14,284 nucleotides of DNA, taken from contig CAMWWR010000008.1 in assembly GCA_947178045.1 (NCBI GenBank), positions 1 to 14,284 of the forward strand, given 5' to 3'. The stretch is from an uncultured Clostridia bacterium. Lineage in GTDB: Bacteria; Bacillota; Clostridia; Lachnospirales; Lachnospiraceae. Every line of letters begins with the position of its first letter. Position 1 is the first letter of the stretch. The notes beneath the pieces were generated by a model. That model saw only the letters and a list, made by a program, of their open reading frames with translations. It did no database searches and was not told the origin of the DNA. Shown here in pieces: positions 6,398-8,472 of this stretch. Made by a program: the position numbers and the translations under genes.

Positions 6398-6820
6398 ATG
6401 GCATATCCGCACGGCAAATTCAGATATACGCTCGAGGTGCAGGGACTGAATCTCGGAGGCTTTTCGGAGGTGTCCGGCTTTGACGCCTCCATCGATGTGA
6501 TCGAATACCGGGAGGGGGATAAGGTGCAGACGCCCATGAAGGTTCCGGGGCTGAAGAAATACGGAAATATTACAATGAAGCAGGGCGTCGCGGACAAGGA
6601 CGCTCTGTATAAGTGGATGGAAACCGGGTTTGAAAAGGATGTGGACCGGAAAACCGTCACCATTACCCTGCTGGATATCAACGGGCAGCCGGCGGCCTCC
6701 TGGCAGATCATCAATGCGTGGCCTACAAAATATACCGCTCCGGATTTCAATGCGACCTCGTCGGAGATTGCGGTGGAGACGCTGGAGCTGGCGCACGAGG
6801 GAATGAAGAGGACAAAATAG
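6398..6820 (+). CDS. Inner tail tube protein (gp19 family, Afp1-like)
   Basis: A 140-residue tube protein of the T4 gp19/Hcp-like fold that stacks as rings to form the inner tube pushed out on contraction. Diagnostic parts are the N-terminal FRYTLEVQGLNLGGFSEVSGF, the DVIEYREG segment with the loop before KVPGLKKYGNITMKQG (a long hairpin typical of tube proteins), and the C-terminal strand ETLELAHEG. The length is normal for the family. GGGAGG (6383-6388) lies 9 nt before the ATG. The gene begins 22 nt after the sheath stop, the usual sheath-tube order. Confidence 0.94.
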   Translation: MAYPHGKFRYTLEVQGLNLGGFSEVSGFDASIDVIEYREGDKVQTPMKVPGLKKYGNITMKQGVADKDALYKWMETGFEKDVDRKTVTITLLDINGQPAASWQIINAWPTKYTAPDFNATSSEIAVETLELAHEGMKRTK

Positions 6821-6894: not shown

Positions 6895-7266
6895 ATGGCA
6901 TGGCAGCTTGAATATGAATTTACCCTGCCCAGAGGGTATGTGGATATCCAGGGAACGGTGCATCGGGAGGGGGTGATGCGGCTGGCGACCGCCGGCGACG
7001 AGATACTGCCCTTAAAGGATCCGCGGGTGCAGCAGAATTCCGGTTATCTTTCCGTGATACTTCTGGCCCGGGTGATTACAAGGCTCGGCTCCCTGCCGGC
7101 GGTGGACACCAATGTGATAGAGGGGCTGTTCACCATGGATCTGGCGTATCTTCAGGATTTTTATGAAAAGATCAATTCCATGGATGCGCCGAAATATTCC
7201 GGCGTATGCCCGCACTGCGGAAGCGCGGTCGAAATTCCCGTAAATTTTACAGGAGCCGGAAGCTAG
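6895..7266 (+). CDS. Tail-assembly-like protein with a CPHC motif; 0-frame partner of a putative frameshift
   Basis: A 123-residue protein in the place where eCIS and phage clusters carry small tail-assembly (chaperone-like) proteins, between the two tube genes. The N-terminus resembles phage tail assembly proteins (YEFTLPRGYVDIQGTVHREGVMRLATAGDEI, DPRVQQNSGYLSVILLARVITRLG, FTMDLAYLQDFYEKIN). The C-terminus has one CPHCGS knuckle (C105, C108), half of a zinc ribbon. AGGGAG (6881-6886) lies 8 nt before the ATG. At N117-F118 the ribosome meets an in-phase slippery heptamer (7242-7248) followed by a hairpin. A fraction of ribosomes could therefore bypass TAG 7264-7266 and make a 182-residue fusion with the DUF6760 domain, as lambda gpG/gpGT does. 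Assignment to the tail-assembly group rests on position and overall pattern. Confidence 0.75.
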   Translation: MAWQLEYEFTLPRGYVDIQGTVHREGVMRLATAGDEILPLKDPRVQQNSGYLSVILLARVITRLGSLPAVDTNVIEGLFTMDLAYLQDFYEKINSMDAPKYSGVCPHCGSAVEIPVNFTGAGS

Positions 7267-7442
7267 AGGTCTATCCGGCGGATCGTATCTATGAGGAGGC
7301 GGCGTTTATCGCATATTACCTGCACTGGAGCCATGATGATATCATGGACCTTCCTCATCAGGAGAGGCTGCGGTGGTGCAGGGAGATATCCGAAATTAAC
7401 CGGCGTCTGGAAAACGCGCAGGAAAATCCGTTTCTGGTCTGA
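7206..7442 (+). CDS. DUF6760 domain, probably expressed as a -1 frameshift fusion
   Basis: The core VYPADRIYEEAAFIAYYLHWSHDDIMDLPHQERLRWCREISEINRRL matches the DUF6760 family, a small domain of unknown function found beside eCIS tube and chaperone genes. The open frame reaches back to an ATG at 7206, but that start lies inside the upstream gene (61-nt overlap), has no Shine-Dalgarno sequence and would add residues (PALRKRGRNSRKFYRSR) unlike the family. No ATG, GTG or TTG occurs in frame between 7206 and the conserved core. The frame is -1 relative to the upstream gene, and a slippery heptamer plus hairpin sits in the overlap. The likely product is residues 1-118 of the upstream protein fused to 64 residues from position 7248. 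An independent small protein using a rare start is the alternative. Confidence 0.72.
   Translation: MPALRKRGRNSRKFYRSRKLEVYPADRIYEEAAFIAYYLHWSHDDIMDLPHQERLRWCREISEINRRLENAQENPFLV
7242..7279 (+). promoter_or_regulatory. Putative programmed -1 ribosomal frameshift signal
   Basis: The 0-frame codons GTA AAT TTT contain the heptamer A AAT TTT (7242-7248), a perfect X XXY YYZ slip site: after a -1 slip both tRNAs re-pair with AAA and TTT. Six nucleotides downstream a hairpin begins, GCCGGA (7255-7260) with TCCGGC (7274-7279), extendable by AG (7261-7262) with CT (7271-7272) across a bulged A7273. The 0-frame stop TAG (7264-7266) lies in the loop. Heptamer phase, spacer length and hairpin position all match known -1 frameshift elements. 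Activity is inferred. Confidence 0.65.
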
Positions 7443-7469: not shown

Positions 7470-7880
7470 ATGCTGATCGCAGGGCAGTATCATTTCCGGG
7501 TGACTGTCGACAATCTTGACATGTCCTTTGCAAAGATTTCCGGCATGGAGAACAGCATGGAATATGAGGTGCTGCAGGAGGGGGGCAATAATCTGGCCCC
7601 GCGTCTGCTCCCGCTCCCGAAAAAGCAGATCAAAACGCTGCGCATGGAGCGGGGAATACGGAAGAACACGGGGAGCGGGCCGGGACTTTTTCCGGGAGCG
7701 GCGGTCAAAAACGGGATCGGGATATCCGTTTTGGACGCGACGGGAAAAACGCTTGCCCGCTACACGGTGGAGGGCGTTACCGTAGTGAAGTGGGAGATGG
7801 GCGCACTGGACGCGCAGAGCAGCAATGTGCTGCTGGAAACCTTCGAGGTGACGTACACGGGAATAAGGCGGGAAATGTGA
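7470..7880 (+). CDS. Second tube-like protein (gp19 family, Afp5-like tube initiator)
   Basis: A 136-residue protein of the gp19-like tube fold, divergent from the main tube protein. It shows the same plan: N-terminal strand YHFRVTVDNLDMSFAKISGM, then MEYEVLQEGGNN followed by the hairpin LLPLPKKQIKTLRMERGI, the strand segment YTVEGVTVVKWEM, and the C-terminal LLETFEVTYTGI. In Afp/PVC the second tube-type protein (Afp5) makes the ring joining the tube to the baseplate hub, and its position here between the tube and LysM genes fits. AAAGGAG (7457-7463) lies 6 nt before the ATG. Confidence 0.88.
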   Translation: MLIAGQYHFRVTVDNLDMSFAKISGMENSMEYEVLQEGGNNLAPRLLPLPKKQIKTLRMERGIRKNTGSGPGLFPGAAVKNGIGISVLDATGKTLARYTVEGVTVVKWEMGALDAQSSNVLLETFEVTYTGIRREM

Positions 7881-7920: not shown

Positions 7921-8472
7921 ATGATGAAAATACGAAAATGGCCGGGAAGTGTCCGGAATACGGGCAGGGTGGCCGCGATACGCGCGTTTGCGGGAAATAT
8001 AAGCCGGAAATACGAGTGGGGGTGTATGGGCGGATTTTACGGTGCGGCGCTGCGCCACCGGAGGGTGGAGAAGCCAGGCACGGTCGTTCAGCAGATCAAT
8101 CTCCGGCAGATCGAGCAGATTATACAGAAAAATACTGCCAAAACCGTGCCGACGGCCGGCCATACAACCGGGAGGCAGGAGCGCGCCTGGCTGCTCTCGG
8201 TCATGGCGGATATTGACGGGCAGGGCGGAGAGCGCAGGCAGCTGGAGCAGCTGATTTTCCGGCGAAAGGAGCAGGAATGGCAGAAGACGGTGCGCCTGCA
8301 GGAGGAAGCGGTTCTGTCGCTGCGCCGGGAGCTGCTGCAGCAAAAAAAGCTGACGGAGCTCCTGGAAAGAAGGGTGACGGAGTCAGCGCCGGATATCGAC
8401 CGGCTGTATGCGGAATTCCGGAAGCGGCTGGAGCGGCAGCTGCGGCTGGAGCAGCAGAGGGCGGGTCTGTAG
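7921..8472 (+). CDS. Uncharacterised coiled-coil protein at the Afp6 position
   Basis: A 183-residue protein I cannot assign to a family. Residues 1-60 are basic and low in predicted structure (MMKIRKWPGSVRNTGR, ALRHRRVEKPG). Residues about 88-180 are strongly helical and charged with heptad-like Leu spacing (ERRQLEQLIFRRKEQEWQ, LRRELLQQKKLTELLERRV, YAEFRKRLERQLRLEQQ), pointing to a coiled coil. It lies between the Afp5-like and LysM (Afp7-like) genes, where Afp encodes the small Afp6 protein. The start is uncertain: ATG 7921 or 7924 with weak GGAG (7910-7913), or ATG 8026 (MGGFYGAALRHRR), which would drop the Trp/Arg-rich first 35 residues. It could be an assembly factor or a baseplate adaptor; neither is shown by sequence. 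Confidence 0.72.
   Translation: MMKIRKWPGSVRNTGRVAAIRAFAGNISRKYEWGCMGGFYGAALRHRRVEKPGTVVQQINLRQIEQIIQKNTAKTVPTAGHTTGRQERAWLLSVMADIDGQGGERRQLEQLIFRRKEQEWQKTVRLQEEAVLSLRRELLQQKKLTELLERRVTESAPDIDRLYAEFRKRLERQLRLEQQRAGL

Follow-up and report, generated by a model that had tools for sequence, protein, structure and literature searches.

A probable programmed −1 ribosomal frameshift joining a candidate tail assembly chaperone to DUF6760 in a clostridial eCIS locus

The window, which is the whole 14,284-nucleotide stretch of clostridial DNA analysed here, carries genes in the order eCIS_core protein, BTAD regulator, AAA ATPase, sheath, tube, gene A, DUF6760, second tube, 183-aa protein, CIS_tube/LysM, YQBQ-like protein (score under the Pfam cut-off) and baseplate J. 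Sheath, two tubes, CIS_tube/LysM, baseplate J, AAA ATPase and eCIS_core all occur in this one cluster, which identifies it as an eCIS as judged from 14 kb. The cluster opens with a small eCIS_core (PF13699) protein at 153–566, followed by the BTAD-type regulator at 566–2458. Directly after DUF6760 comes the second tube gene, with no tape measure gene adjoining. The 183-aa protein (7921–8472, between tube and CIS_tube/LysM) is not convincingly matched by anything in Pfam, NCBIfam or PHROGs. NCBIfam also has no match for gene A or DUF6760, and an Rfam scan of the window gave 0 matches. Gene A has one CPxC pair, and DUF6760 contains a nearly invariant cysteine (RWC), as seen at 7206–7442 and in relatives.

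Table 1. Features at and around the gene A–DUF6760 junction of the window
Feature	Position	Strand	Evidence
Tail tube protein (T4 gp19-like), precedes gene A	6398..6820	+	PF06841, 4.1e-44
Gene A, read in the 0 frame (123 aa); candidate gpG-like tail assembly chaperone	6895..7266	+	ORF; phrog_508, 1.3e-7
Putative slippery heptamer A AAT TTT, in gene A phase	7242..7248	+	Sequence; 79/110 non-redundant junctions; codon constraint
6-base spacer, ACAGGA	7249..7254	+	Sequence
Hairpin GCCGG-N15-CCGGC	7255..7279	+	Sequence; both arms in 56/79 A AAT TTT loci
Gene A stop TAG, in hairpin loop	7264–7266	+	Sequence
Predicted −1 extension carrying DUF6760 (T-like half), 64 codons past the slip site	7248..7442	+	PF20546, 1.3e-18
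Second tail tube-like protein, follows DUF6760	7470..7880	+	PF06841, 1.9e-16

Across the heptamer the 0 frame of gene A reads GTA AAT TTT ACA. The DUF6760 frame is −1 relative to gene A, opens at 7167 and ends with a stop codon at 7440–7442, and its match to PF20546 scores 67.2 bits, above the Pfam cut-off of 27 bits. The hairpin arms are GCCGG(A) at 7255–7260 and (T)CCGGC at 7274–7279. The predicted products are 123 aa and, by a slip at the heptamer, 118 + 64 = 182 aa. A first-pass annotation made from the sequence had described the in-phase A AAT TTT, the 6-nt spacer, the hairpin with TAG in its loop, the exact −1 frame and products of 123 and 182 residues; all of these are confirmed here, with GCCGG and CCGGC as the core arms. 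It had also stated that there is no start with a ribosome site near the DUF6760 core. The sole ATG, GTG or TTG in the DUF6760 frame before the core is the ATG at 7206, 36 nt upstream of the slip site, and the 20 bases preceding it contain no AGGAG-like string. An ATG at the same offset is found in 8 of 107 non-redundant −1 loci. The bipartite pattern TAAATTTT-N6-GCCGG-N15-CCGGC matches the window once (shuffles, mean 0.00). In 299 genomes of the family it has 10 matches, 10/10 at DUF6760 places, and the backwards-pattern control gave 0 among the matches listed for these genomes.

Related junctions were drawn from genomes sharing the genus (DUF6760 in 2 of 6), family (24 of 299) or phylum (13 of 398) of the window, from the best 80 of 166 relatives among named species genomes, and from 13 of 35 matching plasmid records of other phyla. 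Three loci were left out before counting, one without a DUF6760 match (L060) and two without a gene A match (L126 and L128); L001 and L002 are the window itself, L131–L138 repeat family-genome loci and L143 repeats L141. The set comprises 126 loci with gene A and DUF6760, or 110 after removal of 16 near copies. In 107 of the 110, as in the window, DUF6760 is −1 to gene A. The exceptions are L096 (near copy L097), where DUF6760 is in the same frame and has an SD and ATG to itself, the heptamer being absent; L104, in the same frame with a TAG between gene A and DUF6760, which looks damaged; and L117, where the gene A frame looks broken. One of the 107, L094, has a stop inside DUF6760; L094 and L104 are related clostridial loci and both look disrupted.

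The 110 junctions fall into A AAT TTT (79), T TTT TTN (6) and G-run (19) classes, with 4 having none of these and two (L122 and L123) placed as other. The figure of 79 counts any heptamer in the last 45 nt of gene A, and becomes 74 if the last heptamer is used. Since the loci are related, these counts are not independent events. The first-pass annotation had proposed looking for recurrence of heptamer and hairpin in homologous loci; A AAT TTT recurs in 79 of the 110 junctions and both hairpin arms in 56 of those 79. The case that it had named as refuting, a separate start and no heptamer, is present in a minority only (L096/L097 and Haloferax L122). L003, from the genus of the window, has both A AAT TTT and a G-run, together with an ATG that overlaps the gene A stop, as if it stood between two types.

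Ordinary start codons are frequently absent from the DUF6760 frame. From the opening of the frame to the core there is no ATG, GTG or TTG in 49 of the 104 slip-site loci (36/79 A AAT TTT, 2/6 T TTT TTN and 11/19 G-run). Between 30 nt before the gene A stop and the core, starts are lacking in 55/79, 5/6 and 15/19 of the three classes, respectively. In the remaining 24 loci of the A AAT TTT class this stretch does contain an ATG, GTG or TTG, mostly without an SD-like string. Where a start codon is present, it is most often a GTG just ahead of the DUF6760 core, seldom with an SD-like string. A stop closing the DUF6760 frame occurs at most 60 nt upstream of the slip site in 52/79, 3/6 and 14/19 loci, and none of the loci in these classes has a frame-closing stop from the slip site to ~30 codons into the DUF6760 match.

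These data bear on translational coupling, by which a separate DUF6760 protein would be made after ribosomes stop on gene A and restart nearby, possibly at a non-standard codon. Overlapping starts do occur (ATGA in Rhizobium L118 and Haloferax L122, GTGA in the Streptomyces-type L121 and L129), as does the clean SD and ATG of L096/L097, and DUF6760 is annotated by NCBI as its own gene in several plasmids. In Haloferax L122, where all three slip-site types are missing, and in L096/L097, DUF6760 is probably a protein of its own. However, the NCBI gene model for DUF6760 in Nostoc starts on ATA, which suggests that annotation could find no normal start. Coupling also has to contend with the many A AAT TTT loci that offer no start, whether near the gene A stop or in the whole open frame before the core, and leaves the fixed AAATTTT codons unexplained. 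As a general account of the junction it is improbable.

The codons of the heptamer are strongly constrained. There are 82 x-Asn-Phe motifs in the last 18 codons of gene A, and 79 of these read AAATTTT. The preceding codon at the 79 is GTA, ATA, CTA or TTA (in one case the first base is N). The three exceptions are extra Asn-Phe sites in the heptamer-bearing L003 and L014, plus L098. A codon profile was built from 73 related loci picked for having the heptamer (L071, which holds an N, was left out), and its figures describe a pattern rather than independent events. Over 117 codon columns of gene A the mean loss of synonymous freedom is 0.12 bits (sd 0.26). The largest loss is at the GCC codon of the hairpin arm (1.62 bits), and the heptamer codons lose 1.58, 0.93 and 0.69 bits, the last ranking fifth after the thinly filled last column (0.75 bits). 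The heptamer codons and the hairpin-arm GCC are thus four of the five most constrained columns.

It could be supposed that the heptamer is a mere by-product of a conserved Val/Ile/Leu-Asn-Phe motif combined with codon bias. The motif is indeed conserved in the protein, and the genes of these loci favour AAT (58% of Asn) and TTT (67% of Phe). Yet the codon before Asn-Phe ends in A wherever it is readable, while in the same loci GTA makes up 24% of Val, ATA 21% of Ile, and CTA and TTA 2% and 12% of Leu. In addition, adjacent conserved Pro and Cys codons show free synonymous variation, and the −1 position of the DUF6760 frame would have no explanation. There is next to no likelihood that codon bias accounts for the heptamer.

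The hairpin shows a more restricted distribution. A GCCGG located 7–11 bases past the heptamer and a downstream CCGGC are, apart from the 56 loci with both, jointly missing from 22 of the 79 A AAT TTT loci, with one arm alone in 1; the Fisher test that accompanies these counts ignores the relatedness of the loci. In the narrower set of 74 loci the loop is 15 bases in 53/53 arm-bearing loci. CCG encodes the Pro of the 3' arm in 53/53 of these loci, against 10/18 of the others and 263/584 in gene A overall. Mean fold energy in arm-bearing loci is −11.2 kcal/mol at the site versus −6.6 in control stretches, whereas in the remaining loci the two are hardly different (−6.3 versus −5.8 kcal/mol). 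The hairpin of the window taken alone has −11.3 kcal/mol, which is ordinary (z −0.32; 69 of 200 shuffles as good), and it was rejected as proof by itself; its support is conservation among relatives. A universal hairpin was also rejected, as it is incomplete or absent in 23 of the 79 loci. Part of a review on tailed phages indicates that some frameshifts there seem to need no stimulatory signals (PMC5009743). Because of these incomplete cases, and because the gain in folding is largely confined to arm-bearing loci, the hairpin is best described as a feature of a clade. The five core pairs are invariant in the arm-bearing loci, so the structure is marked by synonymous constraint and by joint presence or absence of the arms, with no covariation. 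Transcriptional slippage, where RNA polymerase and not the ribosome shifts frame, could in principle occur where loci of the third class have runs of 5 to 7 Gs, but the window offers just A3 and T4, which are short for such slippage, and a hairpin at fixed spacing suits a ribosomal stimulator, which makes this reading scarcely credible.

The sequence and its conservation, the family matches, and the many loci in which DUF6760 has no other ordinary start make it very probable that a programmed −1 ribosomal frameshift joins gene A to DUF6760. Most ribosomes on gene A would stop at the TAG and release the 123-residue chaperone. A fraction would slip back one base on A AAT TTT, with the tRNAs on AAT and TTT re-pairing with AAA and TTT, probably aided in the clade of the window by the downstream hairpin. 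The slipped ribosomes would read on into DUF6760, giving a 182-residue fusion with the junction VNF-YR. By homology with lambda gpG/gpGT and P2 gpE/E+E', the gene A part should bind the tape-measure protein, and tube subunits would be recruited through DUF6760, which a minority of copies would carry. From the sequence features we infer the slip and its rate, and likewise the role of the hairpin and those of the two chaperone forms.

Other slip-site classes are found in more distant loci. In cyanobacterial, actinobacterial, proteobacterial and some Bacillota loci, the end of gene A carries a G-run in the phase xxG GGG Gxx; here too DUF6760 is −1, and most of these loci give it no normal start. 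The G-run junctions include L139–L142, L144–L147 and plasmid loci among L118–L130, mostly with 5–6 Gs in phase. The 19 loci of this class were assigned to it by having the run; among eight not picked for it (L139–L142 and L144–L147), 7 have at least 5 Gs. A plain ribosome site is an unlikely reading of the run: of 103 other mechanical ORFs there, just 1 has GGGGG within the 13 bases upstream. Single-tRNA slip on G_GGG is a recognized type of frameshift site. The G-run class may use such a slip or coupling, the latter because Rhizobium (ATGA) and some Streptomyces-type (GTGA) loci could restart. Throughout, the −1 frame persists while the slip-site type changes among A AAT TTT, T TTT TTN and the G-run. 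A tree of gene A (119 rows, without L094, L104 and L117, which look disrupted and are kept in the 110) implies at least 11 changes of class, a figure that is only indicative as the tree is poorly resolved.

Viral sequence provides a further setting. Four IMG/VR contigs (L148–L151) carry gene A, T TTT TTY and DUF6760, and in the two examined, L148 and L150, the order is tube, gene A, slip site, DUF6760, tape measure. The exact bipartite heptamer-hairpin pattern had 0 matches in viral contigs, and tblastn of the DUF6760 extension of L148 found no match in phage records. Overall, the evidence tilts modestly towards a broader view, in which chaperone–DUF6760 fusions of the gpGT type are produced by phage-style −1 frameshifting in eCIS from several phyla. 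The slip sites would be of three or more kinds, namely A AAT TTT, T TTT TTN and G_GGG G, the last an unusual run of Gs in phase, and separate starts would have arisen in a few lineages. If true, these non-phage machines would rely on a translational ratio to assemble their tubes.

Fusions encoded in a single frame are rare. Among 120 listed of 7978 proteins, only P0005 is a single-frame gene A–DUF6760 fusion; it is known from a protein record, and an assembly error is possible. A protein search restricted to the DUF6760 end of the fusion gave no match. Six proteins of 249–260 aa (P0002, P0003, P0017, P0019, P0020 and P0027) were rejected as fusions, being tandem gene A copies with no DUF6760 by eye.

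The open literature, with subscription papers and bioRxiv outside its scope, yielded no report of DUF6760 or PF20546. It also yielded no published example of a frameshifted eCIS chaperone, in agreement with the first-pass annotation, which knew of none; a report beyond that scope is possible. Where contractile injection systems and ribosomal frameshifting are mentioned together, the matching passages concern phage tails, and the 'frameshift' in a passage of PMC8528098 is a mutation in a toxin-complex gene. The proposed device is thus of a kind known from phage tails, in a type of machine for which no report was found. It would give a likely role to DUF6760, a domain of unknown function, and add to eCIS gene lists a hidden fused protein where annotation shows either a stand-alone gene whose start is doubtful or no gene at all. 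It also suggests that the slip site must be kept when such a machine is rebuilt, and it makes the assembly of eCIS tubes by the two-form chaperone logic of phage tails directly testable.

Comparison of gene A with known proteins is consistent with a chaperone role. All 20 of the A1 members scanned match phrog_508 (tail assembly chaperone), as does gene A of the window. Relatives on the viral contigs match the T4 gp26-like hub assembly proteins (PF12322) above cut-off (L148, 35.3 bits; L150, 32.1 bits). A model of gene A also matches gp26-like models from phages (best 8.4e-7) and shows a weak similarity to Mu FS-gp41 (PF23746, E 0.11). Gene A of the window itself has no match to PF12322 or PF23746 at E 0.1, and the best gp26-like models are ~250 aa in contrast to its 123 aa. 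No match to gene A was found by tblastn in 50,697 phage records, a sequence search of the PDB gave one chance-like match (E 0.53), and Foldseek against the PDB gave none at E ≤ 0.001. The HK97 tail assembly chaperone (PDB 2ob9) was not outstanding in Foldseek, and its low Z may reflect a common arrangement only. For an HK97-type cluster, 7% frameshifting is given in part of PMC3711429.

The closest parallel to DUF6760 is P2 gpE' (PF06528), with FHW..E...M...E...WRE compared with HW..EIM.M..ER.RWC.E. This is a remote likeness over 28–37 aligned columns (probability 85–90%), with an hhalign score of 32.2 between the DUF6760 profile and the gpE' family, against at most 16.6 in 200 column shuffles and 8.0 for the reversed profile. 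Comparison with Pfam PF06528 alone is weak (3 of 29 members, best 0.019). P2 (NC_001895, frameshift annotated) resembles the window in having a tube gene, a chaperone gene and a −1 extension, gpE/gpE+E'. It differs in its slip site, T TTT TTG rather than A AAT TTT, and in its tape measure gene T, which directly follows the extension where the window instead has the second tube gene. The gpE' likeness and the viral contigs with tube, gene A, slip site, DUF6760 and tape measure lend support to the first-pass suggestion that DUF6760 is the T-like half of the chaperone, and this assignment is likely on sequence grounds. Lambda gpG/gpGT, likened here without sequence comparison, likewise pairs a short chaperone with a longer −1 product, encoded near the tube gene; in the relevant part of the same review the gpG:gpGT ratio is 30:1, with the T part binding tube protein and the G part the tape measure (PMC5009743). 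Lambda has another slip site, and is a phage rather than an injection machine of the cell. The order in L148 and L150, with the tape measure after the extension, resembles that of lambda.
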